Assembly: GCA_030620975.1 (NCBI GenBank)
Contig: JAUXIO010000007.1
Coordinates: 1-42,200, forward strand
DNA from: Dehalococcoidia bacterium
GTDB lineage: Bacteria > Chloroflexota > Dehalococcoidia > GIF9 > JAUXIO01
Reading direction: 5' to 3'
DNA: 42,200 nt
The notes beneath the pieces are model-generated. The model saw only the letters and a list, made by a program, of their open reading frames with translations, ran no database searches and was not told the DNA's origin. This document shows, piece after piece, positions 3,663 through 32,747 of this stretch; the stretch's first letter is position 1; each line of letters starts with the position of its first letter. Position numbers and translations under genes: made by a program.

Positions 3663-4224
3663 CTAAGAATTCAAGAAGCTGCTTTATAATCCAAGCTGTA
3701 GCTCCCCAGATTACCTGCCCATCATATTCGTAAAAATAAGCGGGGCGAATTTTACCGTTAATAAGTTGATACTCCTGCCTGAACTTGCTCTTTTCCATAA
3801 GCGCCGGGATAGGTATCTGAATTATTTCCTCAACTTCGTCACGATTCCCGACAAAGTGATAAGGGCAAGGTATAAAAGCTACAAAAGGAGAAATGACAAA
3901 GCCAGTGGTAGTAATAGCATCATCCAACTCACCTAAAATTTCTACATCTCTAATCTCGAGCCCTATCTCTTCGCAAGCTTCCCTAAGAGCAGTATCAAGA
4001 AGGCAACGGTCATCTTCCCCACGAACTCCGCCGGGAAAGGAAATCTGATTTTTATGATAGGCTACTTTATCACTCCTCTTGGTAAATAGGATGTTGTATT
4101 CTTCCCGTTTACGAAAGATGGGGATAAGAACTGCCGCCTCAATTAAGTCTCTGCCAACGATCCTTTTCTTCCGATGACTAGATAATTTTTGCCTGAGATG
4201 CTCTTTTATACAAATTACGGCCAT
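3640..4224 (-). CDS. Nudix hydrolase, CoA pyrophosphatase-like (NudL/YeaB group)
   Basis: 194 aa. TKRSDKVAYHKNQISFPGG (about 49-67) matches the UPF0035 signature LLTxRSxxxxxHxGxxxFPGG that precedes the Nudix box in CoA diphosphatases. The box follows as DTALREACEEIGLE, with the metal-binding REACEE core intact. Such enzymes cleave CoA or acyl-CoA to phosphopantetheine and 3',5'-ADP. The ATG at 4224 is preceded by a weak AGATAGAG site. The gene has its own promoter at 4241-4270, divergent from dnaJ. Its 3' end overlaps the hspR remnant in a different frame, and clpC follows 150 nt further on. Nudix boxes alone do not prove the substrate, but the FPGG-side motif makes CoA the best guess. Confidence 0.85.
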   Translation of the reverse strand: MAVICIKEHLRQKLSSHRKKRIVGRDLIEAAVLIPIFRKREEYNILFTKRSDKVAYHKNQISFPGGVRGEDDRCLLDTALREACEEIGLEIRDVEILGELDDAITTTGFVISPFVAFIPCPYHFVGNRDEVEEIIQIPIPALMEKSKFRQEYQLINGKIRPAYFYEYDGQVIWGATAWIIKQLLEFLEPSSEAL

Positions 4225-4240
4225 CTCTATCTACTTAATA

Positions 4241-4270
4241 ATGATATCACCACCCTTATCTCTAAAACAA
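4241..4270 (-). promoter_or_regulatory. Promoter for the Nudix-clpC unit
   Basis: On the minus strand, TTGTTT (4265-4270), an 18-bp spacer and TATCAT (4241-4246), with TGA just upstream of the -10 (extended -10). It lies about 17 nt before the Nudix ATG at 4224. The -35 is weak. Confidence 0.45.
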
Positions 4271-4289
4271 CTCTTTGCCATTTTTTGAT

Positions 4290-4306
4290 AATCGCTATTT
4301 GCGATT
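4290..4306. repeat. Inverted repeat AATCGC-N5-GCGATT between divergent Nudix and dnaJ promoters
   Basis: A perfect 6-bp dyad (4290-4295 and 4301-4306) with spacer TATTT. It abuts the dnaJ -35 (4306-4311) and lies 20 nt upstream of the Nudix -35. The position suits an operator. It matches neither CIRCE nor the HspR HAIR consensus. Confidence 0.45.
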
Positions 4307-4335
4307 TGCAATAAAAGAGAACTATTAGTTATACT
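4306..4335 (+). promoter_or_regulatory. Promoter of dnaJ
   Basis: TTGCAA (4306-4311), an 18-bp spacer and TATACT (4330-4335). The predicted start of transcription near 4342 leaves a leader of only about 10 nt before the ATG at 4353, and that leader has no Shine-Dalgarno. Confidence 0.6.
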
Positions 4336-4352
4336 TAAGGATTGGTGCAACT

Positions 4353-5435
4353 ATGACAATGAGGAGAGATTACTACAAGGTACTGGGAGTACTCAGGAAT
4401 GCCACCGATGAAGAGATCAAGAAGGCATTCCGCAAATTAGCTTTTCAATATCATCCTGACCGCAACGGGCAAAAGGGGGCGGAAGAGAAATTCAAGGAAA
4501 TCAACGAGGCTTACCAAGTTCTCTCCGACCCAGAGAAGCGGACTACTTATGACCGTTATGGTCAAGTGTCCGCCGAGAGCTGGCACGGCTTTGACTTTGG
4601 CGGCCTTGGTGATATCTTCGAATCCTTCTTCGGCGGAGCTGCTACTGCAGGTCAGCGAGTTCCGCGGAAAGGCGCTGACCTGCAAACCAGCCTTGAAATA
4701 TCTTTTGAAGAAGCTTTTTTTGGCTGCGATAAAGAAATTGGGATAAAGCGTACCGAAAACTGCCCCTCATGCCATGGAATTGGTAGTCAGCCGGGAATAA
4801 ATCCACAGAGGTGTCCTAACTGCAACGGTAGCGGGCAGGTGCGAAGAGTTCAGCGTAGCATCTTTGGACGTTTTATTCACGTGGCTACCTGCCCACGCTG
4901 CTCTGGCGAGGGGACAATCATTACCCATCCATGCTCTCAGTGTAAAGGGGCAGGGAGAGAAAGAATAAAGCGCAAGCTAACAGTTAATATCCCCGCTGGA
5001 GTAGATGAGGGTTATGAGTTATGCCTCAGTGGCGGGGGGGAAGTCGGCACACACGGTGGTCTATCAGGCGACCTTTACATTACTCTCTCAGTAACACCCC
5101 ACAAGTTTCTCAAAAGGGAAGGGGTCAATATCCTCTGCGAACTACCCATTAATTTTGCTCAAGCAGCTCTTGGAGACGAAGTAGAAGTGCCCACTTTAGA
5201 TGGTAAAGTAACTGTAAGAATACCACCGGCCATTGAGAGTGGGACAGTGCTTTGGCTTAAGGGTAGGGGGGCGCCTCATCTTAATAGCAGAAAATGTGGA
5301 GACCAACTAATCACAGTGCGGGTGGTAACGCCACGGTCTCTGAATGAAAAACAGCGGCGGCTCTTCACAGAATTAGCTGAAACTTTACCCAGAGCTAGAC
5401 AAGCCAGTGAAGAAGTTGAGGAAGTAGTAACCTAA
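4353..5435 (+). CDS. dnaJ: Chaperone DnaJ (HSP40, type I)
   Basis: 360-aa co-chaperone that stimulates the DnaK ATPase and delivers substrates. The J domain (6-70) carries HPD at 34-36. A Gly/Phe-rich linker (79-100) follows. Four CxxCxGxG zinc repeats start at residues 137, 154, 180 and 194, and then come the two C-terminal substrate-binding domains, ending in a short Glu-rich tail. The gene stands alone on the plus strand, separate from hrcA-grpE-dnaK at 20.7-24.3 kb, and next to an hspR remnant and clpC. This suggests that it descends from an HspR-controlled dnaJ locus. No CIRCE lies upstream. ATG 4353 is chosen, with ATG 4359 ([10 protein letters not shown]) as the alternative. The transcript appears to be near-leaderless. 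Confidence 0.96.
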
Positions 5436-26805: not shown

Positions 26806-29400
26806 ATGTTTAGGTGGCTGGGTAGCTTAATTGACTCCAATGAGAAGGAACTAAAGCGCTTTGAGCCTTTAGTGGCTCAAATAAACTCTCTGGAGCCCGA
26901 TTTTGAGAAGCTCAGCGATGCTGAACTCGGCGCCAAGACAGATGAGTTTAAGAGCCGGCTGAAAGCTGGAGAAACGCTGGACGAACTTTTACCCGAAGCC
27001 TATGCCGCAGTTAGGGAAGCGGCTAGGCGGACTATAGGTCAGCGCCATTTTGATGTCCAGCTTATGGGCGGTATCGTCCTCCACCAGGGTAAAATCGCCG
27101 AGATGAAAACTGGTGAAGGTAAAACCCTTGTAGCTACACTCTCTCTCTATCTCAATGCCCTCACCGGCCACGGCTGCCACCTGGTCACCGTTAATGATTA
27201 TCTAGCCAGGCGTGATGCTTACTGGATGGGGTCCATTTACCATGCCCTGGGCACAAGCGTTGCCAGCATCTACCCCCAACAGAACCCGGATGAACATCTT
27301 CCAGCTCGCCTCTATGACCCTGATTACATTGATGAGAAAGATAGCCGCTGGCCTCACTTCAAGCCCATCACCCGCCACCAGGCTTATGAAGCAGACATAA
27401 CCTACGGCACTAACAATGAATTTGGCTTCGATTACCTCAGGGACAACATGGTGATGGACCTTTCCCAGTGCGTCCAGCGTTCGCCTAGTTATGCCATCGT
27501 CGATGAGGTAGACAATATCCTCATTGATGAGGCGCGCACTCCGCTCATCATCAGCGGCGCCGCTGAAGAAGCTACCCAGAAGTATTATATCTTTGCCCGA
27601 TTGGTCCCTCGCCTGGCTAGAGATGCAGACTATGCCATTGATGAAAAAACGCGCACCGCCAGCCTGACTGATGCTGGCATCAGTAAAATGGAAAACATGC
27701 TCAAAAGGGAAGGAATGCTCAAAGCACCCAGCCTCTACGACCCATCAAACTATAACCTCACCCAGTATCTGGAGAATGCCCTTAAAGCTCAGGTTCTGTT
27801 CAAGAGAGACCGTGACTATATGGTCAAGAATGGGCAGGTTATCATCGTTGATGAATTCACCGGGCGGCTGATGCTGGGGCGAAGATACTCTGAGGGGCTG
27901 CATCAGGCAATTGAAGCCAAGGAAAGAGTTAAAATTCAGCGGGAAAGTGTCACTCTAGCTGCCATCACCTTCCAGAACTATTTCCGCCTTTACAATAAGC
28001 TAGCCGGCATGACTGGAACTGCTGCCACCGAAGCTGAGGAGTTTCACAAAATCTACAAGCTGGAAGTGGTGGTCATACCCACCAATAAGCCAATGATTCG
28101 CGCTGATTACCCTGACCAAATTTATAAGGACGAAGAGGCCAAGTTTAAGGCCGTAGCCAGAGAAATTGAGCAGCTTAACACTCAAGGCACACCAACCCTG
28201 ATAGGCACGGTATCCATTGAAAAGTCGGAACACTTGAGCGACCTTCTTAAGAGAAAAGGGATACCTCATCAGGTGCTCAACGCTAAACATCATGAAAAAG
28301 AGGCTGCCATCATCGCTCAAGCTGGACGAACTGGCGCAGTGACTGTAGCTACTAATATGGCTGGGCGGGGCGTAGATATCATACTCGGTGGCAACCCCGA
28401 CGGGCGCCCTGAAAAAGAATGGCAGGAGGAGCACGAGAAAGTGGTAGAGTTTGGCGGGCTTCACATCGTTGGCACCGAGCGTCATGAAGCCAGGCGCATT
28501 GACAACCAGCTTAGAGGGCGTGGCGGAAGGCAGGGCGACCCGGGAAGCTCTCGCTTTTATGTCTCTCTGGAAGATGATGTTGTCCGCCGCTTTGGCGGTG
28601 ACCGCGTTAAAGGCTTCATGGAGTGGGCTGGTTTAGATGAAAATACCCCTATTGAACACTCCATGGTCAGCAAAGCCATAGAAAATGCCCAGATACGCGT
28701 GGAAGGCTACCACTTTGATACCCGCAAGCACCTCGTCGAGTACGATGATGTGGTCAACAAGCACCGTGAGGTAATCTACGGCGAGAGAAATAAGATACTG
28801 AGCGGTGCCGACCTCAAGGCAAATATCCTGTCCATGATTCACGGTGAAATTCAGAATGTGGTGGCTGCCCACTTCAGCGACGACCACATTGAACCGGACC
28901 TATCCGGTTTACTTGAAGACATCTCCACCATCTTTCCCCCGCTGCCAGAGTTAAATCTCAATGCCTTATCTCAGCTAAACCACAAGCAGATTACCCAGAA
29001 ACTGGAACAATATGCTGAAGATTTATATCAGCAGCGGGAGCAAGAAATAGGCGCTGATAACATGCGGATGGTAGAACGACTGGTAATGCTGAGAGTCATT
29101 GATAGCCTGTGGATGGAGCACCTCACCGCCCTGGAGCACGTGCGTCAAGGAGTGGGCCTGCGCGCTGCTGGGCAGCAAGACCCGTTAGTAGTTTATAAGA
29201 GAGAAGGGCACAGCCTGTTTGAGGCCCTGCTTGCCAATGTCCAGCATGATATTGTTCACAGCATTTACCGCATTGGCATTAAAAAGGAGCCAGTACCTAA
29301 GCCTAAAAAGCAGGCAGTGGCTGCGGGCAGGAAAGTCGGGCGCAATGACCCCTGTCCCTGCGGTTCTGGGAAAAAATACAAGTACTGCTGTGGTGGATAA
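26806..29400 (+). CDS. secA: Preprotein translocase ATPase SecA
   Basis: 864-aa motor that drives preproteins through Sec[21 protein letters not shown] and Walker A TGEGKT (102-107), then [60 protein letters not shown] and the C-terminal zinc motif [15 protein letters not shown] (SEC-C, SecB/lipid binding). Between IYPQQ and [20 protein letters not shown] there is an insertion of about 25-30 residues, rich in Asp/Pro/Arg, relative to common SecAs. AAGGGAAAAGC precedes the ATG, 9 nt after prs. fmdB follows 20 nt downstream. Confidence 0.98.
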
Positions 29401-29420: not shown

Positions 29421-29684
29421 ATGCCAATCTACGAGTATAAAGCTTCGGGCAAGGCTCACTGCGAGCTGTGCAAGAACAGATTTGAGGTAAGGCAGGGGAT
29501 GGATGATGAGCCGCTGAAAAGATGTCCAAAATGCGGCGCCGAAGTGAAAAGGCTAGTTTCTCGACCCTTCATATCTGTCAAAGAGCCGCTTCCTTTGAAG
29601 GAAACATTTAACACCCATACCGAAGAGGAAGCCGATAAAATGGGATTGGAGGGCGGCTTCGCCCAAGACCAAATCTGGGAGTGA
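29421..29684 (+). CDS. FmdB-type zinc-ribbon protein
   Basis: 87 aa. MPIYEYKA opens as in the FmdB/CxxC_CxxC_SSSS family, with CELC at 14-17 and CPKC near 35-38 forming a small zinc ribbon. Family members are small putative regulators of undefined role. A good GGAGG precedes ATG 29421. The C-terminal acidic tail ends in two consecutive in-frame TGA codons (29682-29687), after which the same frame encodes a SEC-C-like motif. It lies between secA and the EVE-nuclease gene. Confidence 0.8.
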   Translation: MPIYEYKASGKAHCELCKNRFEVRQGMDDEPLKRCPKCGAEVKRLVSRPFISVKEPLPLKETFNTHTEEEADKMGLEGGFAQDQIWE

Positions 29685-29747
29685 TGAGATGATGGAGTTT
29701 TGTTCTGTGGTTTAGGTAGCAAATGTAAGTATTGCTGCGGGAAATAG
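29685..29747 (+). pseudogene. Orphan SEC-C zinc-motif remnant, in frame after fmdB double stop
   Basis: After TGA-TGA the fmdB frame continues as DDGVL, then FCGLGSKCKYCCGK and TAG at 29745. The pattern CGxGSKxKYCCG is the SEC-C motif also seen at the end of SecA 300 nt upstream ([13 protein letters not shown]). At nucleotide level the two differ at many third positions, so a recent secA duplication is unlikely. There is no start codon. I read it as the tail of a lost SEC-C protein, left when the locus was rearranged. Stop readthrough from fmdB is a less likely reading. Confidence 0.5.
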
Positions 29748-29762: not shown

Positions 29763-30812
29763 TTGGAACATAAATTTCATTTACTGATTTCCCCGAAGTT
29801 TTTTTCTAGAAGCCTAGAGTATGGCCTTTTCGGAGTGAGCGAGAGAAATTTGAATCAGCTTGCGAATATCAAAAAAGGCGATATCGTTTTCTATTACACT
29901 GCTCATAAGGTTGGGTCGAGAACTGAGGGTGTAATATACGGCCCCTTCGAGATCATAAGTGAGATATTCTTCAACGAACAACTCGTTTGGGTACCGGACA
30001 CTAAAGATAACAGCAAAGATAAATACCCTTTCCGCATCAAATTTAAGTATTTAGAGGAACATGTCTGCCCAAACCCCGTATCCGTCCAAGCTTTCTGGGA
30101 CCTCAGAGAAGAGGGAAAAATTAAGTCGGTTATTGATAGTTCGGCCTTGATAGACAAAGCAGTATGCACCTTACTCCATGACGAAGGTATCCTTTTAATG
30201 CAAACCTTATTACAGGCAAATCAGACCCCAGGAACGGACAAATCTCCCTACAAGGGACATAGTTTTGAGGAAAAGGAAATTGATGTTCGTAAGACCAAAG
30301 GCAAAGATATCCAAGAATTGAATATGGAGGCTTATTTAGAGGCTTACCTCCTTATGAACCCTGAAAAACTTCATCAACTCGCTGGTTTTAGCGATTTTTC
30401 TAGCAATAAATACCAAGTTGATGTTTTAAATCAAGTAAGCACCTTCATAGCTGGAGGAGCAATTGACATTGTATGCCTATATAAAAAGAAAGTGCTAGAC
30501 ATATGGCTGACCCTGAGTGCTGCAGTTTTTGAATTGAAGAAGGGAGTAATTGAGCCCTATTCTATCGACCAACTCACGAGATATATTGAATGGGCTGCTA
30601 GGCTAATACCAGGTGCCAAGCATGAGATGATTAAAGGAGTTATTATTGGTCGCGATTTTGGGAAGCAGATAAACCCGAGAAATGCTGTCCTTGAAAGAAT
30701 TACACTCTTTGACAAACTATATTCGCTAGATTGTTACACGTACCACGTGACTGATAAAGAAATTACTTTCGAAAAGTTCAACATAACCACTGGAGTGATA
30801 AAACATGCTTGA
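29763..30812 (+). CDS. EVE-like domain fused to PD-(D/E)XK (NucS-like) nuclease
   Basis: 349 aa. Residues 3-95 (FHLLISPKFFSRSLEYGLFG, LANIKKGDIVFYYTAHKVGS, EGVIYGPFEIISE) look like an EVE/PUA-type domain that reads modified bases. Residues 185-300 form a restriction-like core. After MEAYLEAYLLMNPEKL come GGAIDIV (D235), VFELKKG (E257, K259) and YSIDQLTRYIEWA (Q270), the order and spacing of NucS/EndoMS-type nucleases. Established knowledge: EVE domains recur in modification-dependent restriction enzymes. The inference is a type IV-like defence nuclease. TTG 29763 is the start, with AGGAG 7 nt upstream. The gene looks AT-richer than its neighbours and sits between fmdB and polX. Its stop overlaps the next start by 8 nt. 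The domain calls come from reading motifs only. Confidence 0.7.
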   Translation: MEHKFHLLISPKFFSRSLEYGLFGVSERNLNQLANIKKGDIVFYYTAHKVGSRTEGVIYGPFEIISEIFFNEQLVWVPDTKDNSKDKYPFRIKFKYLEEHVCPNPVSVQAFWDLREEGKIKSVIDSSALIDKAVCTLLHDEGILLMQTLLQANQTPGTDKSPYKGHSFEEKEIDVRKTKGKDIQELNMEAYLEAYLLMNPEKLHQLAGFSDFSSNKYQVDVLNQVSTFIAGGAIDIVCLYKKKVLDIWLTLSAAVFELKKGVIEPYSIDQLTRYIEWAARLIPGAKHEMIKGVIIGRDFGKQINPRNAVLERITLFDKLYSLDCYTYHVTDKEITFEKFNITTGVIKHA

Positions 30813-31035
30813 TAGAGAGGTCGTTGAGGAACTCCTCAGTTGCGAATTTGAAGAAATAGGGTTGAAAATACCCAAAGACATCAACAAACAAGAGCTTGTA
30901 GAGGCTTTTTGCCAGTATAGCGAAGATGATTACTACGAGTGGCTAAAGGATAACTTCGAATCTTTCTTTAACCATGGCAACCCCGAGTGGGAATGGATAA
31001 GGGAAAGAATCAGGTATTACTCGGAAATGCAATGA
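30805..31035 (+). CDS. Small acidic protein, partner of the EVE-nuclease (unknown function)
   Basis: 76 aa, strongly acidic, with many Trp/Tyr/Phe near the C-terminus (YYEWLKDNFESFF, PEWEWIRERIRYY) and no recognisable motif. The ATG at 30805 overlaps the nuclease stop by 8 nt, and its own TGA overlaps the polX start as ATGA. It is therefore translated between the two. Small acidic proteins encoded beside nucleases can be inhibitors, DNA mimics or accessory subunits, but nothing in the sequence proves that. I do not recognise the family. Confidence 0.65.
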   Translation: MLDREVVEELLSCEFEEIGLKIPKDINKQELVEAFCQYSEDDYYEWLKDNFESFFNHGNPEWEWIRERIRYYSEMQ

Positions 31036-32747
31036 AAAATACCGCCATAGCTAAAGTTTTTCAGGATATCGCCGACCTTCTGGAGCTCAAGGGGGAAAAT
31101 GTTTTCAAGATTCGAGCTTACCAGCGGGCGGCGCGGGCTATCGAGCATCTGCCCAAGGAGATGGAAATCATGCTTGAGGAGGGGGAAGACCTCAAAGGCA
31201 TCCCAGGAGTGGGCGAGGCCATAGCTAAGAAGACCACCGAGTTAATAACTACCGGGAAGCTGGGCTACTATGAAAATTTAAAGGCTGAGTTTCCCGAGGG
31301 CATAACCAGCCTTTTGGAAATCCCGGGCATCGGCCCCAAAACGGCCAAGAGGCTTTCCAGCGAGCTGGAAATAAAGTCGGTTGAGGAGCTGGAGCAAGCT
31401 GTCCGACAGGGTAAAGTGGCCAAGCTGTTTCGCCTTGGCGACAAGACCGCAGATAATATGCTTCAGCAAATTCAAGCATTCCGCCGCAAAGACCAGCGCA
31501 TTCCCATCGGAGAAGCTTTGCCCAAGGTGGATGAAATTCTAGCTGCCCTGCAGCCCATCCCCGGGGTGAGGAACTTAACTGCCGCCGGCAGTCTGCGTCG
31601 CTTCAGAGAGACCCTGGGGGACGTTGACCTCATGGGCACCGCCGATAACGCCGAAGGAGTCATCGGAGCTTTCGTTGCCTTACCACAGATAAGGCAAGTG
31701 TTAGTTCAGGGGCCGACTAAAGCCAGCGTTATCATCCCCGGCGGGCTTCAGGTTGATTTGCGCATGGTGGAACACGATTGCTTTGGTTCTCTGCTTCAAT
31801 ACTTCACCGGCAGCAAGCAGCACAACATCATTTTGAGAGAAAGAGGGCGCAGACAAGGTCTAAAATTGAGCGAATACGGCATTACCGACCTCGCCAGCGG
31901 CAAGCTGGAGAAGTTTACCTCCGAGGAGGAATTTTACCATCGGCTGGGACTTCAGTATATTCCACCGGAACTTAGAGAGGCCTCCAAAGAGGTAGAAAGG
32001 GCAGAGTCAGGCACCCTTCCCAAGCTGGTAGAACTAGGTGATATAAAAGGGGACCTTCACGCTCACACTGATTGGAGCGACGGGCACAATTCCATTGAGG
32101 AAATGGCTCTGACGGCTAAGGCTCTGGGTTATCAGTATCTGGCGATTACCGACCACTCCGTGGGAAGGGGCATTGCCCACGGACTTAATGAGGAGCGGCT
32201 AAGAGAGCAAGTTGCTAAGATTAAGGAATTGAATGAACGCCTGGATGGTATCCATCTCCTCAGCGGCATAGAAGTGGATATCCGAGCCGATGGCAGATTA
32301 GACCTCCCCGACGAACTTCTAGCTGAGTTGGATATCGTTATTGCAGCCATCCACTCGGCCATGAATCAGAGCCAGGAGCAGATAACTAGAAGGGTTATCA
32401 GAGCTATAGAAAATCCCCATGTTGATGTCATCGCCCATCCCACCTGCCGCCTCCTGGGAGAGAGAGAACCAGTAGCAATAGATATGGAGGCTGTCTTTCA
32501 GACCGCAGTCAAAAACAATAAGGCTCTGGAAATCAATGCCCAGCCCGACCGGCTTGATTTGAAGGACGTTCATGCCTTTCGGGCCAGACAGCTTGGAGTG
32601 AAGCTCACTATGGGCACCGACGCCCACAGCAGCGGCCAGCTTGGACTTATGCGCTTTGGCATTGGCGTCGCCCGCCGCGCTTGGTGTGAAGCTGAGCACA
32701 TACTGAACACCAAACCATTGGAGGAAATACTCGCCTTCCTACATTAA
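31032..32747 (+). CDS. polX: DNA polymerase X with C-terminal PHP domain
   Basis: 571-aa repair polymerase. Helix-hairpin-helix repeats (KGIPGVGEAIAKKTTEL; LLEIPGIGPKTAKRL) precede the Pol X palm, with AAGSLRRFRETLGDVDLMG (catalytic DVD near 196) and QVDLRMV (third Asp). The PHP phosphoesterase domain starts with DLHAHTDWSDGH (about 341) and holds ITDHS, GIEVDI, IAHPT and GTDAHS. All metal ligands are visible, so 3'-5' exonuclease/3'-phosphatase activity is expected. ATG 31032 is chosen by the ATGA overlap with the 76-aa gene and by homology to the usual N-terminus (AKVFQDIADLLELKGENVFK). The frame upstream of it belongs to the small gene. Confidence 0.96.
   Translation: MKNTAIAKVFQDIADLLELKGENVFKIRAYQRAARAIEHLPKEMEIMLEEGEDLKGIPGVGEAIAKKTTELITTGKLGYYENLKAEFPEGITSLLEIPGIGPKTAKRLSSELEIKSVEELEQAVRQGKVAKLFRLGDKTADNMLQQIQAFRRKDQRIPIGEALPKVDEILAALQPIPGVRNLTAAGSLRRFRETLGDVDLMGTADNAEGVIGAFVALPQIRQVLVQGPTKASVIIPGGLQVDLRMVEHDCFGSLLQYFTGSKQHNIILRERGRRQGLKLSEYGITDLASGKLEKFTSEEEFYHRLGLQYIPPELREASKEVERAESGTLPKLVELGDIKGDLHAHTDWSDGHNSIEEMALTAKALGYQYLAITDHSVGRGIAHGLNEERLREQVAKIKELNERLDGIHLLSGIEVDIRADGRLDLPDELLAELDIVIAAIHSAMNQSQEQITRRVIRAIENPHVDVIAHPTCRLLGEREPVAIDMEAVFQTAVKNNKALEINAQPDRLDLKDVHAFRARQLGVKLTMGTDAHSSGQLGLMRFGIGVARRAWCEAEHILNTKPLEEILAFLH

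Follow-up and report, generated by a model that had tools for sequence, protein, structure and literature searches.

The window analyzed in this work is a stretch of 42,200 nucleotides from a Dehalococcoidia bacterium (GenBank assembly GCA_030620975.1, contig JAUXIO010000007.1, positions 1 to 42,200), in which a nuclease gene and a small gene are found between secA and polX. The features discussed below, all on the forward strand, are as follows.

26806..29400 (+), secA, an ORF that forms the left border of a hotspot here and in related loci
29356..29400 (+), 3′ tail of secA, the sequence duplicated downstream of inserted modules
29421..29684 (+), fmdB-type zinc-ribbon gene (PF09723, E 5.8e-14), located in an inserted module
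29703..29747 (+), decayed second copy of the secA tail, which reads FCGLGSKCKYCCGK* and lies after fmdB and directly before the nuclease gene
29763..30812 (+), EVE-PD(D/E)XK nuclease, an ORF of 349 aa
29772..30086 (+), EVE (PUA-like) domain of the nuclease, approximately residues 4-108, delimited by PF01878, PRK00809, and fold
30327..30650 (+), PD-(D/E)XK core of the nuclease, approximately residues 189-296, delimited by invariant columns and secondary structure
30805..31035 (+), 76-aa small protein, a 3′ companion of many restriction modules, recognized from its ORF, homologues, and contexts
31032..32747 (+), polX, assigned by its Pfam domains, the right border of the hotspot here and in related loci

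Rechecking the ORF coordinates returned exactly the two-gene layout that had been predicted, namely, products of 349 and 76 aa linked by an 8-nt overlap between the nuclease gene and the small gene and by an ATGA overlap between the small gene and polX. The nuclease gene starts with a TTG at 29763 that has AGGAG upstream and ends with a stop at 30812; the final ~9 residues of the product are an extension of low confidence. The 8-nt overlap is not conserved in the subfamily, as five relatives with the small gene have gaps of 2-15 nt, and the ATGA overlap, with the polX ATG at 31032, is peculiar to the window genome. The GC content is 0.40 for the nuclease gene and 0.41 for the small gene vs. 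0.50-0.53 for secA, fmdB, and polX, as expected if the pair was inserted. Both genes are under purifying selection, with dN/dS values of 0.04-0.09 for the nuclease and 0.14-0.18 for the small gene where dS could be estimated. Among the ORFs of the window, the cassette contains no methyltransferase gene.

Domains and relatives of the nuclease

The N-terminal part of the nuclease had been proposed to be EVE/PUA-like, and both sequence profiles and structure comparisons agree. PF01878 matches residues 24-108 with an E-value of 2.2e-5 and 24.9 bits, above the curated cut-off of 23, and PRK00809 also matches the N-terminus; all 12 of the 12 A2 members match PF01878 at E up to 0.1. By sequence, the nuclease also matches two solved EVE proteins, 2p5d and 1wmm. 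The AlphaFold model (mean pLDDT 84.7, pTM 0.85) has a PUA-like fold at this end, with a Foldseek match to 2p5d (E 1.9e-8, TM 0.77 on the target) and further fold matches that include 1wmm and the 5mC-DNA-bound structure of THYN1 (5j3e).

In the C-terminal half, the model contains a helix at residues 189-198, strands at 217-225, 234-244, and 247-258, and a second helix at 265-281. Across 16 homologues with 21-82% identity, no substitution occurs at E189, D235, E257, K259, Q270, Y274, or W277, and these residues are located on, or at the ends of, the helices and strands listed. This alpha-beta-beta-beta-alpha core with a conserved D...ExK is the PD-(D/E)XK arrangement, and the core that had been predicted from D235, E257-x-K259, and Q270 is confirmed by both the conservation and the modelled fold. 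The D/E/K residues, whose loss in homologues the original prediction had named as grounds for its rejection, are kept in all 16. PADLOC assigns a weak match to PDC-S02, a single-gene phage defence candidate, at residues 176-315 (E 9e-6), which covers the nuclease half and leaves the EVE half uncovered.

The label "NucS-like" that had been attached to this core holds as a distant fold resemblance and not as an assignment to a family. The nuclease superfamily is common to both, and the core has weak fold matches to EndoMS/NucS (5gke, E 2.9e-3) and to NotI (3c25). However, the NucS profile PF01939 does not match the window nuclease at E up to 1 (the only protein matched, at E 0.0044, is a distant EVE-C protein of locus L065), and the N-terminus is an EVE domain instead of the NucS N-terminal domain. 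Membership in NucS/EndoMS was rejected for these reasons.

Close relatives of the window nuclease (subfamily A, 58-82% identity) are rare and scattered. They were found in three genomes of Chloroflexota (L014, L015, and L019) and, outside this phylum, in Candidatus Scalindua (L016), a deltaproteobacterium (L017), and Omnitrophica (L018); judging from these sequences, subfamily A jumps between phyla. Matches to the nuclease occur in 2 of 400 sampled genomes of the phylum, the window genome itself included, and in 13 of 393 genomes of the class. A second group, subfamily B, has ~25% identity to the window nuclease and occurs in other Dehalococcoidia. Plasmid and phage records yielded no relative of the nuclease. 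For one distant locus (n = 1), PF01555 matches are present elsewhere in the same genome.

In L016-L018, the nuclease gene and the small gene are flanked by remnants of two DNA methyltransferase genes that were cut at different points, which indicates that the nuclease persists with no complete partner pair beside it. The EVE-C relatives in L065 and L067 adjoin an intact methyltransferase gene, an arrangement that squares less easily with a pure type IV role. Profiles, conservation, and the model place a modified-base reader and a nuclease domain together in the window protein, the combination by which type IV enzymes are recognized, and modification-dependent (type IV) restriction is its most likely function, as had been predicted. 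The accompanying suggestion that the arrangement is not a named system is not supported, since Bell, Wolf and Koonin (2020, PMC7641849) had already described EVE-PD(D/E)XK proteins as predicted enzymes of type IV. In that paper, EVE-nuclease fusions form a recurrent restriction class that is inferred to be modification-dependent, and the window nuclease is a new member of the EVE-PD(D/E)XK class. Like the enzymes described there, it carries both domains in one polypeptide, evolves fast, and has defence surroundings; it differs in falling into a specific subfamily and, beyond what the searched sections of that paper mention, in occupying a defined slot and having a small 3′ companion in common with other modules. 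The EVE-HNH endonuclease VcaM4I (PMC7897488) likewise has an EVE reader fused to a nuclease and is modification-dependent, but its catalytic domain is HNH whereas that of the window nuclease is PD-(D/E)XK.

A variable slot at the 3′ end of secA

In Dehalococcoidia, the gap that runs from the secA 3′ end to polX is a hotspot for defence genes, and the earlier description of the cassette as lying inside a housekeeping operon is at odds with the content of this gap, which varies from genome to genome. The gap is empty (from an overlap to ~50 nt) in L134, L135, L140, and L143. Elsewhere it is occupied by EVE nucleases, restriction-modification genes of the BsaWI or HNH type, toxin-antitoxin pairs, PD-T4-2, or a GHKL ATPase, and in L136-L139, L141, and L144 by other genes, some of which are not related to defence. 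The fmdB gene is missing from most of the related secA-polX loci. In some relatives, the defence cargo ends in the small gene, and remnants of the small gene persist before polX where new cargo took its place or the small gene itself decayed (L115, L118, L119, and L128). The genome with the empty gap at L143 has its nuclease and small gene at another locus, L015. In this same genome (G601), the polX of L143 contains an in-frame stop or a frameshift.

The gene order in the window is secA, the fmdB module, the secA tail copy, the nuclease gene, the small gene, and polX, and the fmdB module probably entered later than the nuclease cassette. The tail copy is identical to the tail of its own secA at 26 of 39 positions, compared with at most 22 in shuffles, and its profile score is 27.0, compared with a best score of -5.3 in 20 shuffled loci. 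In related genomes, the inserted modules are set apart by a series of att-like repeats that copy the final 38-57 nt of secA. These include an exact 57-nt repeat (39/39) around a toxin-antitoxin pair in L119, an exact 38-nt repeat (38/39) in L080, and weaker, more diverged copies in L014, L115, L067, L070, L065, and L075. Both direct repeats of the gene end and empty sites, by which integration at a 3′ end is recognized, are present. The stretch from the small gene to polX, where a simple integrase model predicts a tail copy, was found to contain none, and no recombinase gene was recognized by eye in the module ORFs read. As a separate observation, the pair in L119 (positions 3827-4626; G1046:C3) is of the VapBC type and is bordered by the exact 57-nt repeat, forming a clean, recent-looking insertion of ~0.74 kb.

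The ssrA islands of Dehalococcoides and the staphylococcal SCC elements (PMC3146451) are similarly built, with tandem modules inserted at the 3′ terminus of an essential gene present in one copy and short direct repeats of the gene end between the modules. The secA slot differs from them in its target, in repeats of 38-57 nt, and in modules of 0.6 to a few kb; it also differs in that no integrase was recognized in the modules and no right-hand repeat lies beside polX.

The small protein and the genes that precede it

The 76-aa protein is modelled as three helices (pLDDT 93), and the motif DYYEWLKDNFKSFFxHGxPDW is nearly constant across its homologues. Pfam, NCBIfam, and PADLOC contain no family that matches it, PHROG gave no convincing match, sequence comparison gave no solved relative, and fold searches of PDB and viral structures gave nothing below E 1. 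Plasmids contained no relative of the small protein, and phages contained none of one homologue. Three scans of viral contigs gave no matches. The acidity that had been noted is not a conserved property, as the net charge of full-length homologues ranges from -16 to 0. The variable charge and the lack of a fold match weaken a reading as a DNA-mimic anti-restriction protein of the Ocr or ArdA kind. The right-hand end of the small gene showed no common DNA recombination site. The protein is present in 26 of 393 genomes of the class, twice as many as have the nuclease (13). In L071 (3147-3715), a tandem pair of small-protein genes follows the GHKL ATPase gene, and the second copy is diverged with a net charge of -24.

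When neighboring genes were named by Pfam and PADLOC, 25 of the 27 intact copies were found to directly follow a restriction or defence gene, with at least nine kinds of gene represented. These contexts are distributed over Chloroflexota, Planctomycetota, Omnitrophota, and one deltaproteobacterial phylum. The distance from the upstream gene to the small gene is -8 to 73 nt in 24 of the 25 copies; in the remaining one (L079), the nuclease was read through a masked stretch. The upstream genes are as follows.

EVE-PD(D/E)XK nuclease: subfamilies A and B (L024 and L027 among B)
Third EVE type with a methyltransferase: L065, L067
Fourth EVE type: L066, L070, L073, L075
HNH-type restriction-modification genes: L069, L074, L116, L148
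HNH-like 354-aa gene: L151 (assigned by eye)
TdeIII: L077
BsaWI with its methyltransferase: L080
PD-T4-2 A and B: L068, L072
GHKL ATPase: L071

The exceptions, intact copies without a nuclease directly upstream, are in L076 and L078. Near the copy in L078 (7468-13000), there are a helicase-like gene (1114 aa) and a methyltransferase-like gene (732 aa), which by eye may resemble the SNF2/COG1743 system that Bell et al. (PMC7641849) link with EVE.

In the tree of the small protein (n = 27), we counted 17 changes of cargo, compared with a mean of 17.8 for shuffled labels, and 7 changes of host group, compared with a shuffled mean of 11.4 and a minimum of 8. Co-evolution of the nuclease and the small protein was rejected because the cargo labels fit the tree no better than shuffled ones. 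All copies from the secA-polX slot form a single cluster, such that a functional link to the upstream genes leans mainly on the loci located elsewhere, namely, L015, L016-L018, L024, L027, L074, L077, L079, L148, and L151.

Interpretation of the cassette

Taking these lines of evidence together, we consider it probable that the window nuclease is a modification-dependent enzyme carried as swap-in cargo of the secA-polX slot and that the small protein accompanies restriction modules in general. In incoming DNA, the EVE domain would bind a base that is modified and probably flipped out, and the PD-(D/E)XK domain would cut close to that base; no methyltransferase would be needed if the host lacks the mark. 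The nuclease would have arrived as cargo of the slot between the secA 3′ end and polX, in which modules may be gained, presumably by means of a recombinase, stacked, and lost, leaving secA tail copies between them. The small protein would travel at the 3′ end of the cargo and would not be a subunit of one enzyme alone. Its most likely job may be to restrain or adapt the nuclease via a conserved host component, a role suggested by the constancy of the core motif while the nuclease changes. Since the protein retains its own core while the neighboring genes change, it would more probably contact a component that all these cells share than each individual nuclease.

A broader version of this idea may be entertained only tentatively. 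It sees in the small protein an all-purpose control or adaptor factor, shared by restriction modules of unrelated fold and mechanism, that acts via a conserved host component and allows nucleases to enter new hosts safely, with the secA 3′ end as an attachment site in Dehalococcoidia. The shared 76-aa companion and the secA 3′-end slot are the new parts of the system, as neither is described in the family libraries and literature searched. Restriction systems are usually described with type-specific parts; if the reading is correct, one small protein found in four phyla behind EVE nucleases, PD-T4-2, a GHKL ATPase, and type II systems would add a component that such systems have in common. It could also serve as a handle for searching upstream for unnoticed defence genes. 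The slot provides a defined site for mining defence modules in the mostly uncultivated Dehalococcoidia, and it extends the pattern of the Dehalococcoides ssrA islands to a protein gene and defence cargo.

The strongest alternative, which we regard as somewhat unlikely, is that the small protein is a passive resident of recombination hotspots with no role in restriction and that cargo is simply inserted upstream of it. Such a resident would explain why, within the secA-polX slot, the tree of the small protein tracks site and host rather than cargo, why truncated remnants before polX outlast the exchange of cargo (L115, L118, and L119), and why a solitary small gene is found in L076 while the sister locus L077 has a TdeIII system. 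It would not explain the small genes that follow nucleases off the slot, both in L015, L024, L027, and L077 and in other phyla (L016-L018, L148, and L151). In other phyla, moreover, the stop of the small gene abuts methyltransferase remnants that resume at different codons, which indicates that the nuclease and the small gene joined that flank as a unit several times. The purifying selection on the small gene also argues against a passive resident.

The small gene beside the nuclease had been put forward as a coupled partner. The adjacency stands, as the two adjoin in 6 of the 7 subfamily A loci with a spacing of -8 to 15 nt, and it is what favors a dedicated two-gene, modification-dependent system made of the nuclease and its own specific partner. 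Such a system is nevertheless very unlikely, because the same small-protein family follows the many unrelated kinds of defence gene listed above. In addition, the small proteins of subfamilies A and B (L024 and L027) are 49-59% identical whereas the nucleases share ~25%, and the partner is replaced in L004/L019 and gives way to a zinc-ribbon protein in L020, L025, and L119. Least probable of all is a NucS-related host nuclease for DNA repair or RNA processing that acts on damaged or modified host nucleic acid, since the weak EndoMS/NucS fold match and the position next to polX, a repair polymerase, are outweighed by the patchy, horizontally spread distribution, the GC content below that of the flanks, the insertion-type surroundings, the missing PF01939 match of the window protein, and the recurrence of EVE-nuclease fusions as a restriction class (PMC7641849).

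Two further small-protein families were observed around these cassettes. A 75-aa zinc-ribbon protein, in place of the small protein, is encoded directly after subfamily B EVE nucleases in L020 (10547-10774, minus strand), L025 (10353-10580), and L119 (6388-6615). A second unnamed family of ~80-115 aa, whose members are 32-37% identical, is found upstream of these cassettes in L077 (4528-4764), L078 (5879-6121), L066 (5742-5981), and L027 (1566-1910, minus strand).
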